From the NCBI GenBank assembly GCA_002798295.1, contig NWQT01000013.1, positions 1 to 42,205 of the forward strand: a stretch of 42,205 nt of DNA, written 5' to 3'. The notes under the pieces are model-generated. The model was not told the origin of the DNA. It worked only from the letters and a program-made list of their open reading frames with translations, and ran no database searches. Shown here piece by piece: positions 9,309 through 42,205 of this stretch. Position 1 is the first letter of the stretch. Each line of letters begins with the position of its first letter. Made by a program: the position numbers and the translations under genes. The stretch comes from Lysobacteraceae bacterium NML07-0707 (lineage in GTDB: Bacteria > Pseudomonadota > Gammaproteobacteria > Xanthomonadales > Xanthomonadaceae).

Positions 9309-9694
9309 GGGTTTTCAACCTTGCTTTCCGGGGGGCGTTCGGCCAACAGCACGCTGCCGATGGTGTCATCGCCCTGATATTTGCGCAGCAGCGCCTTCCA
9401 GGCGGCATCGTCGGCCTTGGGGCAGGTAATGCCGGCCATGGTGCTGTTGCCGCCCTCGGCCACCGGGCGGTTGAAGTGCCGGCACATGCGCTGGTTGAGG
9501 ATGAAATCCTGCACATCCTGCGGCAGGGATTGCGCATCCACGCCGGTTTCGCTGCCCGGCTGTGGCTGGGCGGCTGCAACCGGTTCGGTGGACGCAGCTG
9601 GCGCACTGGCTTGTGGCTCGGCGCTGCAAGCGCCCAGCCACAGTGCCAAGAGCAAGACCTGCGCGGGTTTATTCCGCACGGCCACCGAACTCAC
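9305..9694 (-). CDS. small lipoprotein of unknown function
   Basis: An exported lipoprotein of up to 129 residues with a signal segment ([11 protein letters not shown]) ending in lipobox LGAC. A Pro/Ala/Ser-rich linker of about 35 residues follows, then a compact domain with two cysteines (RMCRHFNRP and GITCPKAD) that could form a disulfide. I do not recognise the family. Start choice is uncertain: GTG at 9694, 9685 or 9679 are all in frame, and all overlap the end of efpL. The stop overlaps the GNAT start (ATGA). Confidence 0.7.
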
Positions 9695-10235
9695 CCGTCA
9701 CGGTATTGACCCAGACCTTTTCGCCATTGGCGATGTATTCGGGCACCTGGATTTCAATGCCGGTGGACAAGCGCGCCGGCTTGGGGCGCTTGGTGGCAGT
9801 GCCGCCCTTGAGTTCCGGCGGGGTGTCGATGACTTCCAGCACGACCGACGTGGGCAGCTGCAAGGCCACCGGGGTGTCGTCGATGATCTGCACATAGCAG
9901 CCGGTCAGGCCGTCGGTGATGTAACCGGCGGCATCGCCGATGGCGCTGGCATCCAGCGCGTACTGGCTGTAGTCCTCGTCATCCATGAACACATAGGCAT
10001 CGCCGTCCTTGTAGGAGAAGGTGGCCTGACGGCGCAGCAGCTCCACTTCGGTGAGATTGTCGTCGGCATCGAAGCTGGCATCGAGCTTGTTGCCGCCGGG
10101 CACCGAATACAGCGTGAAACGGAAGCGCACATTGCCGCCACGGCCCTGCGGGCTGGAGCGCTCGATGTCGCGCACTTGATACACGCCGCCGTTGTATTCG
10201 ACGACGTTGCCTTTCTTGATGTCGTAAGCCTTCAT
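9669..10235 (-). CDS. efpL: elongation factor P-like protein EfpL (YeiP)
   Basis: A 188-residue EF-P paralogue with the usual three-domain layout and the conserved C-terminal motif ([11 protein letters not shown], then GEKV). It matches YeiP rather than canonical EF-P: the loop tip reads SPQGRGGN, with arginine (R32) where EF-P has its modified lysine. The stretches [16 protein letters not shown] and [17 protein letters not shown]-type region also follow YeiP. EfpL binds stalled ribosomes and relieves pausing at difficult sequences without needing EpmA modification. The gene lies 12 nt after the SDR gene and heads the overlapping lipoprotein/GNAT/RNase/barstar chain. Confidence 0.92.
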
Positions 10236-11096: not shown

Positions 11097-12077
11097 TTAT
11101 TCTTCATCCGCCGTATCAGTGGAAACTGGGTGGTGAGTGCGCTCCCACTCCGCCTTGGCAGCCCCCTGTTTGTTTAGCACATGAATGTAAGCCCGTTTGG
11201 AGGATGGGGCATCGAAATGCCAAGGAAAAGCAGCTGGCTCTTCTATGGCCGCATATGTCAGCCGGACTTTATCCTCAGAACCAAGACAAATGGCAGTAAG
11301 TGGCCAAAGCACAGCACCGGAAGGGACTCCACGGTTGATACGCCGGATTGTAGTTGCACGCACAGGCTGCCCGTCAATATCGGCTTGCAATATCTGCCCG
11401 CGTATGCGGCCTGTGGCTTCATCCTGCCAGTTGCTGACCAGTGTATGGGTTTTGATTGACTGAAAGCGCGTTTCCAGCTCGGTCAAAACTTCCATCGGGG
11501 TTAAATCCTTGGCGTTCGAGCCGATTCTGGAAAAACAGTGGGAAGTGACATGGATGCGCTGCTGCCGGGAAACTTCCATGCCAGTATCAAAACGCTGGCG
11601 CAGATAGGCATCGGCAAGCGGCTGCCATTGGCCTTGTTGATAACGGGCGAGCAACTGGCCGCTGCCATCGGTTTCAAGGCTGAATTCAATGGCTTGAATG
11701 TCTCCACTCATGGTGTACTGGATGCCGATACGCGCACCTGCCGTACTGCACATGCCCCAAGCTTTTTGGATACGGCTGAAACCTGTGCCAACGACATGAC
11801 TGTTGATGTTTTCCAACAATTGCCCGTCTATAGGGTTGCCATCAATGCTTATGGCGCTGACCCCATGTTTCTTACCGAAATCCAGCCCGGATAAATGATA
11901 GTCGCTGAACTGTACCCGGATATTCCGTAAGCCGCAGTTGAAGACGTAATCCGTATCAACCCAGAGGGAAGGGCGGTGACCGTCCGGCCCATCCAGGAGC
12001 AGCCCTCTGCGGATGAGTTCATTTTGGTTGAACGGCTGCGAGGCAAGTAGTGCCAGTAAAGCTAGGGCGGATTTCAT
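11097..12077 (-). CDS. exported protein of unknown function
   Basis: A 326-residue protein that I do not recognise. Residues 1 to about 14 are hydrophobic (MKSALALLALLAS) and look like a short signal peptide, so it is probably periplasmic or secreted. The body is mixed alpha/beta with four cysteines (in VFNCGL, WGMCSTAG, TSHCFSR and TAICLGS) that could pair in the periplasm. The C-terminus is charged and probably disordered. The ATG at 12077 was preferred over one 57 bp upstream because it begins directly with the signal-like segment. Base composition is more AT-rich than the flanking genes, as in the next gene upstream. Confidence 0.6.
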   Translation of the reverse strand: MKSALALLALLASQPFNQNELIRRGLLLDGPDGHRPSLWVDTDYVFNCGLRNIRVQFSDYHLSGLDFGKKHGVSAISIDGNPIDGQLLENINSHVVGTGFSRIQKAWGMCSTAGARIGIQYTMSGDIQAIEFSLETDGSGQLLARYQQGQWQPLADAYLRQRFDTGMEVSRQQRIHVTSHCFSRIGSNAKDLTPMEVLTELETRFQSIKTHTLVSNWQDEATGRIRGQILQADIDGQPVRATTIRRINRGVPSGAVLWPLTAICLGSEDKVRLTYAAIEEPAAFPWHFDAPSSKRAYIHVLNKQGAAKAEWERTHHPVSTDTADEE

Positions 12078-12168
12078 GAGGCATCGTATATTGAGTGGAC
12101 GGAATTTGCGTGCTCGAAGTTTGTGAGGCACCAAGGGTACTTAATCTTAAAATCATTGGGAGGTAGGC

Positions 12169-13686
12169 TTATTTTGCTGTCTCAAGCCGAGACTTGGCAC
12201 AGAGCTTGGCGAGGCTGGAGAAGCCTTCGGTTTGAGCGAGGGTAGCCCAGGAAAAATGCAGTAATTTGTCGAAGGTGAATTGCTCGCGTGCCAGTGATAC
12301 CCATACGCCCTCTACAGCCACCAGCGCAAAACCGGCTGAGGCAAGCCGCAGTGCATAGGATTTGGCCTGAAAAAATGCCTCGCGCAGACTGGCTTCATTG
12401 GCAATGCGGTACTTGGCTTCCCAGATGAAGCGGGCGCTTTCCTCACCGCGCTTGGTTTGGGCAAGCAAAGCGTAATCGGGGTAAACACGCTCGCCTCGTC
12501 CCATTCGCAGCGACATTTGCCTGAGCCAGTCTTCTTCAGTAAAGCCAAGGCGTTGCAGCAGAGGCTCAAGAAGCTCGGTTTCGACATCGCGCTCGTTGTC
12601 CAGTTGTGCAGCTTGCGGCAAGTCTAGGCTGATAAGCCGTGGAAGCGAGGCGGTGTCGAAATCACGCGCTTCCAGCATGGAGAGAATGGCGTTGTACTCA
12701 GTCGGAGTGAACGAGACTCCCGCAATTGCCTGCATATTTTTCTTGATGATGGATTTTTCCCCCAATATCTCGTTTTCCCTCATTTGTTTCAGGTGCAGAG
12801 GCGGGATGGGGCGGGGAGAGCCAATCCATATTTGCTGAGGGTAATAGGAAAACGGGTCGAAAAAGCCTTTTGAGACGGCTCTGGCGATGCTGATGATGGA
12901 TTTCTTTGGGCTGATGCTGTAGGTCAGTATGATGTCGCCGGGCTGGGTGCGCTCGTTCCCTTGGATAAGAATAGGTGCTTGTTTGTTTTGGATTTTTTCG
13001 GCCTGCTCTTTGAAAGTGATGACCAGTTGGACATTGATTGGGTCGGGAAGCTCGCCCTCGGAAAAAAATCCGGGAGCCACCCTGGGCGCAAAATCATACA
13101 GAAATGCAGCCATTTCCTCAGGAGAAAGGCCGTGGCTGATGCGGAATTCATGCAGGCTGCGGCAAATTTCCGCGTAGTAATACAGTCGCTCTCGGTATTG
13201 CCGTTTTCCGGGCGGTGGTGGCAGTGGAATGGAAAATTCGCTGCAAATGGTTTCCAGCTGAAAGAAATGGTCAACCAGAAAGTAGGGCAGGAAAAAATCC
13301 CTGTCCAAGTGCTGCACAAACAAGGAAAGCCCGGGGATGAAGGTCAGCAGGTCGCGTGGTGGCCATTCGCCTTCATCAATCAATTCGTCGATGAAGTCGA
13401 GATAGCCGTCGATGGCTTCATCAATATTGGCCGATGCTTCAACCGGCGCATCGCGGGCGCGGGAGTTTTCCTCCGTTTCTGCCAGCGTCCAATCTGCGGC
13501 TAGCTCGATTTGCTCTTGCCAGTATTCCAGGGGCTGAGTGGAAGGCAGCCGCACTGCAAGAAAGTCGCGCAGCGTTTGCGCTTGACGCTGCTCAACCAGC
13601 TTCGGTAGTTGCGTGAAGAAGGCCAGGGCTTTCTGGCCTGCTTCGGTGGCGAGATAGCAATCAAAAACGTAGCGATTGAATTGCAT
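12169..13686 (-). CDS. uncharacterised EVE/PUA-like plus PD-(D/E)XK nuclease protein (HsdR_N-like)
   Basis: A 505-residue cytoplasmic protein with three visible parts. Residues 1 to about 230 are helical and aromatic-rich (HLDRDFFLPYF, YYYAEICRSLHEF, SPEEMAAFLYDFAP) with no function I can assign. Residues 238-350 resemble an EVE/PUA-type domain: QPGDIILTY, ISIARAV, YYPQQIWIG, PIPPLHLKQM, NMQAIAGV and a closing helix. Such domains can read modified bases. Residues 364-470 look like the nuclease domain of type I restriction HsdR: E369/E371, YPD404Y, WE423AK425Y and Q440-x3-Y444, giving a complete PD-(D/E)XK set. There is no helicase or methyltransferase beside it. It starts 8 nt after liuE stops, without a clear ribosome site, so translation may depend on coupling. 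Base composition is lower in GC than the liu genes. Confidence 0.72.
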   Translation of the reverse strand: MQFNRYVFDCYLATEAGQKALAFFTQLPKLVEQRQAQTLRDFLAVRLPSTQPLEYWQEQIELAADWTLAETEENSRARDAPVEASANIDEAIDGYLDFIDELIDEGEWPPRDLLTFIPGLSLFVQHLDRDFFLPYFLVDHFFQLETICSEFSIPLPPPPGKRQYRERLYYYAEICRSLHEFRISHGLSPEEMAAFLYDFAPRVAPGFFSEGELPDPINVQLVITFKEQAEKIQNKQAPILIQGNERTQPGDIILTYSISPKKSIISIARAVSKGFFDPFSYYPQQIWIGSPRPIPPLHLKQMRENEILGEKSIIKKNMQAIAGVSFTPTEYNAILSMLEARDFDTASLPRLISLDLPQAAQLDNERDVETELLEPLLQRLGFTEEDWLRQMSLRMGRGERVYPDYALLAQTKRGEESARFIWEAKYRIANEASLREAFFQAKSYALRLASAGFALVAVEGVWVSLAREQFTFDKLLHFSWATLAQTEGFSSLAKLCAKSRLETAK

Positions 13687-13694
13687 GGAAAGGT

Positions 13695-14594
13695 TTATGC
13701 CGCACTGCGTGCCCGCGTTACCTTGCTGCTGGTGGTGCGGCCGAGTTTCCCGGCAAGCCACTGTCCGGTTTCAACCAGGCGGTCGAGGTCGATGCCGGTT
13801 TCCACGCCCAAGCCATGCAGCATGTACACCACGTCTTCGCTGGCGACATTGCCGCTGGCGCCCTTGGCATAGGGGCAGCCGCCGGTGCCGGATACCGCAG
13901 CATCGACCACGGCCACGCCTTCTTCCAGACAGGCGAGGATATTGGCCAGTGCCTGGCCGTAGGTGTCGTGGAAGTGGATGGCAAGAGCGCTCATCGGTAC
14001 GGCCTCGGCCACGTCGCGCAGCATGGCGCGTGCTTTGCCGGGTGTGCCAACGCCGATGGTGTCGCCGAGTGAAATCTCGTAGCAGCCCATCTGGTGCAGG
14101 GCGCGGGCAACACGTACCACATCTTCCAGCGGCACTTCGCCCTGATACGGGCAGCCGAGCACGGTGGAGACATAGCCGCGCACTTTGATGCCGTCGGTGC
14201 GTGCCGCTTCCAGTATCGGGGCGAAGCGTTGCAAGGATTCGTCAATCCCGGCATTGGTGTTCTTGCGGTTGAAGGTTTCCGAGGCAGCGGTGAACACGGC
14301 CACTTCTTTGGCGCCGACCGCCTTGGCGCGTTCATAGCCTTGCAGATTGGGGGTGAGCACCGGGTAGTGGATGCCGGGGTGTTGTTCGATGCCGGCAAAC
14401 ACTTCGGCGGCATCGGCCATCTGCGGCACCCATTTCGGGCTGACAAAGCTGGTGGCTTCGATGGTTTTCAGGCCGGTTTGTGACAGGCGGTTGATCAGCT
14501 CGATTTTGTCGGCGGTGGCGATGAAGGTCTTTTCGTTTTGCAGGCCATCGCGCGGGCCGACTTCAACAATACGGACGTGGTTGGGCTGGCTCAT
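13695..14594 (-). CDS. liuE: hydroxymethylglutaryl-CoA lyase
   Basis: A 299-residue TIM-barrel lyase that splits HMG-CoA into acetoacetate and acetyl-CoA, the last step of leucine breakdown. Landmarks are [12 protein letters not shown] at the N-terminus, [18 protein letters not shown] with metal-binding histidines, and [14 protein letters not shown] with the catalytic cysteine. The ATG at 14594 is chosen because it begins the conserved [17 protein letters not shown] segment. It lies 1 nt after the liuD stop. The longer in-frame start at 14636 would lie inside liuD. The uncharacterised nuclease gene follows 8 nt downstream. Confidence 0.95.
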
Positions 14595-17378: not shown

Positions 17379-17587
17379 GCGGCTTTCTCGAAACGAAACA
17401 AGCGGCAATGATAACGGTGCCGGGCGGCGGCTTGCTGTATGCGGCACCAAAGAAAAGCAGATTTGGCAAACCTGCTTGCCTTGCATGAGAGCCCGCACTT
17501 CTCATCCTGCACGTAGCTGTACGCCGCCTTGTTATTCCGCGCGAAGTCGTATCCACATCCCGTCACCCTGGGTGCAGAATGACAGCT

Positions 17588-17617
17588 GCTTTTGCTTTTG
17601 CTTTTGCTTTTGCTTTT
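17588..17617. repeat. (GCTTTT)5 tandem repeat
   Basis: Five perfect GCTTTT hexamers, followed by imperfect units (GACTTT, GCCCTG). In one minus-strand frame it encodes alternating Lys-Ser and in another Lys-Gln, but no gene is supported there. Copy number of such a hexamer can vary by slippage. Confidence 0.9.
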
Positions 17618-17786
17618 GACTTTGCCCTGTCCGGACGCGCCGAGTACCGCAGCGACCCATGGGAGCAGGCAGGGCTTTGTTTGAGCAGCGCGCAGCGATA
17701 CGAGTTTGCCCTGCCGCCATTGGGCGCATGGAACGCTGGGAACCCCGCGCAGCGGGGCGCGGTAGCCAGGGCTGGTTTCTTTGCCT

Positions 17787-41581: not shown

Positions 41582-42205
41582 TGTAATGACCCACCACTTT
41601 CTGCACAGGTCAGGCTGCTAAAGCATACGCTTCAGCAGGTGTTTTCATGCCGAGCGCCTGATGCGGGCGTCGGTGATTGTAGAACTGGATCCAGTCGCCC
41701 AGCACACGCATGGCATGCTGCTGGCTCTCAAAGCGATGACGGTGTACGCATTGCTCCTTGAGGGTACGGATGAGGCGTTCCACCATGCCGTTTTGCTGCG
41801 GGCAATGCGGGGTGATGAACTCTTGCTGCAAGCCATAGCTGCGAACCAGCCGCGTGTAACCGCGGCTGGTAAACACCAGGCCGTTGTCCGAACGCAGCAG
41901 GAACGGCTCAGGCACACGCCCGAGCGTGCCATAGCGGGCAATCAGTGCCTGCTCCAATGCCGCCACCGCGGTACTGGCCTTGCCGCTGCGTGAGAGATGC
42001 CAGCCCAGCCATTGCCGGGTATGGCAATCGATAACAAGTGCCAACGTCAGCCAGCCATCACGTCCTCCCCATACCCGGCACAGGTCGGTCGCCCAACGCT
42101 GGTCGGGGGCAGTAGCGACCGAAGGCAGCGCCTGGATACGGGGCCGTCGTCCCACTGCACGCTTGCGCACCTGCCAGCCCTTGAGCTGGAAGATGCGTTG
42201 CACCG
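41582..42205 (-). mobile_element. IS3-family insertion sequence, right part (cut by window end)
   Basis: The element end is placed at about 41582, where TGTAATGACCCACC begins; IS3 ends usually start with TG. It contains OrfB on the minus strand and continues past the window edge. Its insertion removed most of the IetS-like protease. The other end and target duplication lie outside. Confidence 0.7.
41610..42205 (-). CDS. IS3-family transposase OrfB (partial)
   Basis: At least 197 residues to the window edge; the frame is probably open beyond it, so the apparent start is internal. The DDE core is seen as RWATDLCRVWGG, LRSDNGLVF and GMVERLIRTLKEQ, and the end is YNHRRPHQALGMKTPAEAYALAA. The frame is intact. 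It differs from the IS3 fragment at the left edge. Confidence 0.9.
   Translation of the reverse strand, partial: VQRIFQLKGWQVRKRAVGRRPRIQALPSVATAPDQRWATDLCRVWGGRDGWLTLALVIDCHTRQWLGWHLSRSGKASTAVAALEQALIARYGTLGRVPEPFLLRSDNGLVFTSRGYTRLVRSYGLQQEFITPHCPQQNGMVERLIRTLKEQCVHRHRFESQQHAMRVLGDWIQFYNHRRPHQALGMKTPAEAYALAA

Follow-up and report, generated by a model that had tools for sequence, protein, structure and literature searches.

The gene at positions 12169–13686 on the minus strand of the 42,205-nucleotide contig from Lysobacteraceae bacterium NML07-0707 analysed here (the window) probably encodes a horizontally acquired, stand-alone modification-dependent (type IV) restriction endonuclease, a reading to which we assign a probability of about 0.6. 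In its favour are the EVE fold of the middle domain, the nuclease resemblance of the C-terminal domain, the conserved catalytic residues and the lack of a partner at the 20 loci compared, together with a distribution that is patchy, copies on one phage and on two plasmids, and the lack of the gene in all other genomes sampled from the genus. Among the observations that count against it are these: the EVE domain of the window copy departs most from the family, and most neighbours of the relatives are metabolic, signalling, mobile or without assignment. The pairing of EVE with PD-(D/E)XK domains is a known prediction; what is new is a variant with a helical N-terminal domain.

Domains of the protein and their conserved residues

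The open reading frame begins with an ATG at 13686, ends with the stop codon at 12169–12171 and encodes a stand-alone EVE plus PD-(D/E)XK protein of 505 residues. Judging from sequence comparison the gene is real, as 21 relatives were found outside the window, most of them matching over nearly the full length at ~28–44% identity. Residues 1–491 match phrog_37753 of PHROGs v4 (E = 1.3e-88), which also matches all four other members tested (3e-101 to 3e-108). The match is full length, whereas the PHROG itself is a function-less clustering label with no domains or name given. Searches of PADLOC and NCBIfam at E up to 5 returned no match for the window protein, and no description of this family or its PHROG was found in open-licence PubMed Central text. 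Unless stated otherwise, the residue counts below refer to 20 aligned sequences. The family has 22 known members with the window copy counted; the two not aligned are L015 and L016, in each of which the gene is broken into two frames, and L011, which lacks its start at a contig edge, is absent from one alignment. A position was called conserved when the same residue occurs in at least 85% of the other members. The structure modelling used neither of the two plasmid sequences nor the phage sequence added later.

Residues 364–500 (12187–12597, minus strand, edges approximate) resemble a PD-(D/E)XK nuclease of the HSDR_N_2 type, to judge from the profile match and the predicted structure, and contain both the D and the (D/E)xK of this fold. 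In the AlphaFold2 model the core elements follow the order helix 365–379, strands 387–424, helix 431–447 and strand 452–457. On the minus strand, E369 (motif RDVE; 12580–12582), D404 (motif MGRGERxYPDY; 12475–12477) and E423-x-K425 (the ExK motif; 12412–12420) are present in 20/20 members, the stretch MGRGER (395–400) is invariant, and Q440 (motif QAKSYALRL; 12367–12369) is kept in 19/20, with R in the phage member. The preliminary description had put these residues and E371 into one nuclease motif set; E371 drops out, being E in the window copy only (1/20). The window copy departs at just one of the 37 conserved nuclease positions.

The profile evidence agrees with this assignment. A Pfam search of 17 members with an E limit of 1 matched eight families, including HSDR_N in 10 members (best 0.0025) and HSDR_N_2 in two (best 1.3e-4). 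Comparison of the nuclease domain by hhalign with an HSDR_N_2 profile of four sequences (five were chosen and one came out empty) gave E = 5.8e-5 and a probability of 65.6, and the alignment places the catalytic D, ExK and Q in corresponding columns; against the same profile the two remaining domains scored 0.17 and 0.052. The nuclease region also matched a type I R N-terminal domain in the viral library (rank 3, E = 0.019), and a Deinococcus plasmid protein matching the nuclease part only is annotated as an HsdR N-terminal-domain protein. The PD-(D/E)XK fold proposed earlier is thus borne out by the element order of the model and by the HSDR_N_2 match. In type I R subunits and kin, HSDR_N_2 (PF13588) is the N-terminal nuclease domain, but here the nuclease is preceded by an EVE and a helical domain and has no helicase or HsdM/HsdS; with 505 residues, three domains only, and no helicase motor or HsdM/HsdS in the window, the protein does not have the make-up of a type I R subunit.

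In the model, residues 213–352 (12631–13050, minus strand, edges approximate) have an EVE (PUA-like) fold of the PUA superfamily, in agreement with the EVE-like domain noted beforehand. The best of five full-length AlphaFold2 models, built with 17 sequences, has a mean pLDDT of 86.8 and a pTM of 0.75 (others 78–86). Among the best 50 of 270 PDB matches returned by Foldseek for this region, those below 1e-3 are 2gbs (1.8e-4), 2hd9 (2.7e-4), 2ar1 (3.9e-4) and 1zce (7.7e-4), all of which we take to be EVE proteins, and the ASCH protein 5y6c; also among these 50 are 2eve (E 3.4e-3, target TM 0.67) and, after it, YTH domains. The EVE domain is named after 2eve (available text of PMC7641849). Pfam EVE matched two of 17 members (best 0.0017), the window copy itself being without a match. 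Profile comparison with the classical EVE proteins of the window's genus was weak (E = 0.0036, probability 3.8, 119 columns), and its repeat gave E = 0.0081, no better than the 0.0062 of an off-target pair, the N-terminal domain against SduA_C over 24 columns. Since an unrelated pair reaches such a value, the comparison is too weak to stand alone, and its alignment was used for residue register and not as proof. The same genome also holds a classical EVE gene (L072) and a 43-codon EVE-like stretch on contig 5 (L080, 1501–1629; E 5.7e-6).

The EVE domain of the window copy is altered at five of its 20 conserved positions, the most of any of the 20 members (next 3/19). Residue 228 (13003–13005, minus strand) is Q in place of the D of 18/19 others, and residue 241 (12964–12966, minus strand) is I, with W in 18/19 others and Y in one; residues 268 and 320 are both A, with W in 15/19 and G in 19/19 others, respectively. 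An alignment of 17 members gave window-copy departures of 5/36 for the N-terminal domain, 7/27 for the EVE domain and 5/44 for the nuclease. In the weak profile alignment (E = 0.0036), residue 228 falls on the acid of the classical EVE SEPxEF stretch. In VcaM4I, E15 contacts N4 of the flipped base (available text of PMC7897488), and residue 228 may be its counterpart, a correspondence that we draw from the weak alignment, in which the VcaM4I sequence takes no part. The weight to be put on D228Q calls for caution, since most VcaM4I variants with a single change in the pocket still restricted T4gt to some degree, and three such changes proved toxic to the host (available text of PMC7897488). Taken together, the EVE losses (D228Q, W241I, W268A, G320A) and the intact nuclease suggest that the window copy carries a changed or weakened reader.

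Residues 1–212 (13051–13686, minus strand) are predicted to form an all-helical domain. When this region was modelled alone with AlphaFold2 from 16 sequences, the best of five models had a pLDDT of 87.3 and a pTM of 0.85 (others 73–84). A Foldseek search of the PDB with residues 1–212 found no fold match (best E-value 0.67); the preliminary description had left an N-terminal part of ~230 residues unassigned. A Bcl-2-like fold was considered and rejected, the best matches starting from E 0.67 and the first having an rmsd of 14.2, which were taken as chance. Three of 27 conserved positions in this domain are changed in the window copy.

The closest described relatives in domain content are the EVE-PD(D/E)XK fusions, a class that Bell, Wolf and Koonin (2020; PMC7641849) have already predicted to act in type IV restriction as endonucleases. 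They share the domain pair and the predicted role, and the available text of that paper describes the class without a helical N-terminal domain and without sequences. By that description, the helical N-terminal domain would mark off the present family. VcaM4I is likewise an EVE reader fused to a nuclease; it flips 5mC and 5hmC and restricts T4gt, a 5hmC phage (available text of PMC7897488). According to the same text it differs from the window protein in having an HNH nuclease, an N-terminal EVE domain and 309 residues (construct numbering), and so has no 210-residue helical domain. These two cases sustain the expectation that EVE readers fused to nucleases are known in modification-dependent restriction, the first as a predicted class and the second by restriction of T4gt.

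Relatives and their genomic surroundings

The 21 relatives comprise 18 bacterial contigs of several phyla, two Deinococcus plasmids and one phage contig. The 18 were retrieved by scanning 84,980 species genomes with a three-sequence alignment, and 15 of them are titled MAG; as the scan relies on two short patterns, 18 is a lower limit. By their titles they come from Treponema, Geobacter, Desulfobacteraceae, Deltaproteobacteria, a delta proteobacterium, Sulfurimicrobium, Rhodocyclaceae (2) and Sorangium, and from Planctomycetota/Planctomycetes (2), Terriglobia (2), Chryseobacterium (2), Adhaeribacter and Bacteroidales (2). The proteins of the two plasmids are ~31% identical to the window protein. 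The closest relative found, at 44% identity, lies on the IMG/VR contig L081, the same single contig being returned by two of four viral scans and nothing by those with the first two pattern sets; four queries of 50,697 phage records gave no match to the nuclease protein. The window protein was its own only match in its genome. None of the 16 other genomes of the genus (17 searched) contains a homologue, and samples of the family (149) and the phylum (398) gave no match besides the window protein.

The window, phage and Treponema proteins group together in the tree with 100/100 support. Within this group the window and phage proteins pair with 84/75, and the window protein stands apart from the three Pseudomonadota members; the branches are long. 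Clustering by phylum is partial, with eight changes compared with a minimum of six and a shuffled mean of 10.1, a value as low being reached in 7/200 shuffles. This partial clustering argues that the family is not freely exchanged and that transfer is occasional.

Clustering of 284 open reading frames at 20 loci, 22 of which are pieces of the nuclease protein, revealed no conserved partner. Apart from the nuclease protein, the widest cluster covers four loci; two of its members were scanned, both of them histidine kinases. Inspection of the translations found no helicase, HsdM/HsdS or methylase partner in the window, so the protein appears as stand-alone as had been proposed. The short genes directly downstream at several loci were considered as a conserved operon partner and rejected as unrelated (histidine phosphatase, cytidylyltransferase, DUF2807, transposase-like and Bro-N). 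A Bro-N gene (phrog_15286) lies directly downstream at two loci, in Geobacter (L005, 6415–7158) and in a Rhodocyclaceae MAG (L017, 2196–3059), 3 and 59 bases after the nuclease gene. No conserved adjacent antitoxin was found across the 20 loci, an arrangement unlike that of a toxin–antitoxin pair.

Three of the 20 relatives are found within a defence locus or next to one. The copy on one of the two Deinococcus plasmids is inside a BREX locus (L003), with pglZ on one side and, on the other, further genes that include pglX and brxC; L007 adjoins dndC, dndD/PbeC-like and dndE/dndH-like genes; and L002 is near an MmeI-type IIG enzyme. Methylases occur nearby at the individual loci L002 and L003, and one type II methylase appeared in the PADLOC scan of neighbours. 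It covered the 118 neighbours lying up to 5 kb away at the 17 other loci and, with an E limit of 1e-5, yielded matches to 50 models, an overall count which, having no background sample, is no evidence of enrichment. Among the 25 of these 50 models listed, three were matched in two members (PDC-S13, PDC-S04 and mad2) and 22 in one, and many of the single-member models are methylase models that probably reflect one protein. A Pfam scan of 50 neighbours found most to be metabolic, signalling, mobile or without assignment, including cobalamin synthesis (L009), aminotransferase (L008), phosphoglucomutase (L010) and galactose genes (L019). Transposases, presumed from the translations, as are those of the window, neighbour L011, L018 and L021. 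The defence-island neighbourhood raised by the preliminary description is present at L002, L003 and L007, and most contexts are metabolic.

On the phage contig L081, the nuclease gene is located between two genes, one for a coat protein and one for a tape-measure protein, to which 71 and 67 phage records match, respectively; a RelE-like gene lies beside it. This RelE-like gene and a small gene following it occupy 9468–9961. Most gene names on this contig are our presumption from the translations, as is the identity of 1wmi and 3g5o as RelE proteins.

Avoidance of m5C methylases by the hosts was looked for and not seen: matches to such methylases, some of them partial, were found in 12/19 member genomes, compared with 10/14 control genomes, and none in the window's own genome. 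Their presence in 12/19 member genomes makes it unlikely, on this genome comparison, that the protein is a simple cutter of any 5mC.

Position behind liuE and probable horizontal gain

The nuclease gene follows the stop codon of liuE on the same strand after an 8-nt spacer, as had been noted, and no obvious Shine–Dalgarno sequence precedes it. We assigned the names liuE, liuD and liuB from the translations, taking liuE to be the HMG-CoA-lyase gene. Given the 8-nt spacer and no obvious Shine–Dalgarno sequence, the gene may be carried on the liu transcript and rely on that transcript and on translational coupling for its expression. At 53.4%, its GC content is indeed lower than that of the liu genes (liuE 62.4%, liuD 63.9%, liuB 63.2%), and its third-position GC is 0.60 compared with 0.75–0.77 for liuE/liuD/liuB. 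The flanking gene opposite liuE (11097–12078) is equally low in GC (53.5%). For this low-GC gene, taken as 11097–12134, the third-position GC is 0.45 and the GC 53.5%; of the eight relatives examined, the three closest have a blastn match to it and five have none, and genome G550 seems to carry it in duplicate. Elsewhere in the window, transposase-like frames were recognised by eye from the translations at both ends (467–1144 and 41610–42203), and a low-complexity stretch translating as repeated KS or CF residues lies at ~17580–17620, between liu genes.

The insertion site was compared by blastn in eight of the 16 other genomes of the genus, in which both flanks match. The interval 12079–13694 (strand-independent; unmatched up to 13707) has no match in any of the eight. 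In three of them the matches resume at 12078, the start codon of the next gene, and at 13708–13710, the end of liuE; in the remaining five, the match resumes only at about 11000.

The interval between liuE and the next gene is a gene-turnover spot in the genus, with other genes there in the relatives, among the genes listed (L034, 4362–5141; L036, 1576–2331; L035, 1748–2749; also L037–L041, with L038 and L039 covered in part). Genomes G543 and G542 have a protein with an HNHP motif there, G550 has a second copy of the neighbouring gene, and more distant species have PAS-type and GNAT genes, again among the genes listed; these HNHP, PAS and GNAT names are presumptive. The L034 copy of the HNHP-motif protein has no PHROG or PDB match.

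The absence from the genus, the low GC and the tree jointly favour acquisition of the nuclease gene by horizontal transfer, as far as sequence comparison can indicate.

A predicted modification-dependent nuclease and its alternatives

In the mechanism that we infer, which takes in modification dependence, a defence role, base flipping, a role for the N-terminal domain and cotranscription, the EVE domain would flip and inspect a DNA base, and on finding an accepted modification the PD-(D/E)XK domain would cut the DNA nearby, with metal bound by D404, E423 and K425 together with E369. The helical N-terminal domain would most likely serve in dimerisation, in holding the nuclease off until the reader is loaded, or in both. 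Since unmodified host DNA would be spared, no methylase would be needed, and the gene could therefore move alone and sit behind a host operon as a stand-alone gene, here maybe on the liu transcript. The preliminary description had raised a possibly new defence or DNA-processing enzyme: its domain and context parts stand, its function is what we infer, and its newness yields to the class already predicted in PMC7641849.

The alternative that survives best, while still unlikely, is a Shedu-like abortive or infection-sensing nuclease, in which the N-terminal domain would sense a phage signal and free an unspecific DNA nuclease, the EVE domain being only a DNA-binding aid. The large conserved N-terminal domain is compatible with this, as is the retention of the nuclease residues in a window copy whose EVE domain is the most changed. 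Shedu (SduA_C, DUF4263, PF14082) is also a single-gene nuclease, and Shedu-type nucleases have variable N-terminal sensory modules, which lends this alternative further support (available text of PMC12839542). However, the nuclease here has no SduA_C match (hhalign E = 0.28 against a thin profile of only three sequences), and on this profile comparison membership of Shedu was ruled out; PF14082 is not among the eight Pfam families matched by the 17 members at E up to 1, and the EVE fold is kept in all aligned members.

A bolder version of the restriction reading is somewhat more doubtful again. Here the proteins would form a phage- and plasmid-borne restriction family in which a new all-helical fold gates the reader and nuclease and the pocket is retuned between members, and the base accepted by the window copy, which has D228Q, W241I and W268A, may be a modified thymine or uracil, or one that is bulkier, and not a modified cytosine.

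We consider it improbable that this is primarily a phage-borne competition gene, by which temperate phages would destroy the modified DNA of their rivals and of which the bacterial copies would be secondary. The phage contig does hold the closest relative, beside a RelE-like gene, and the PHROG match is full length; however, four viral scans produced a single viral contig, and the four queries of phage records none in 50,697. Still less probable is a reader and cutter of modified RNA in place of DNA. EVE and YTH domains bind modified RNA too, and ASCH and YTH proteins come after EVE among the structure matches, but the nuclease aligns with HsdR-type DNA nucleases. A housekeeping DNA-processing enzyme tied to leucine breakdown, to which the same-strand position 8 nt behind liuE might point, is scarcely credible, as the gene is absent from 16/16 other genomes of the genus while all 17 have liuE, its GC is low, and its relatives do not lie beside liu genes: searched with the liu proteins, the 284 reading frames at 20 loci gave only three crotonase-type matches (27–30%).

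Read as a modification-dependent restriction endonuclease, the protein turns a PHROG without function into a testable single-gene restriction enzyme, and the family contributes an N-terminal domain that is modelled with confidence and unmatched in the PDB. Its members are a naturally varied set of EVE readers, with one much altered member among them, from which it may be learned how such domains choose the modified base. For the mapping of DNA modification, single proteins that read modified bases could also be useful reagents.
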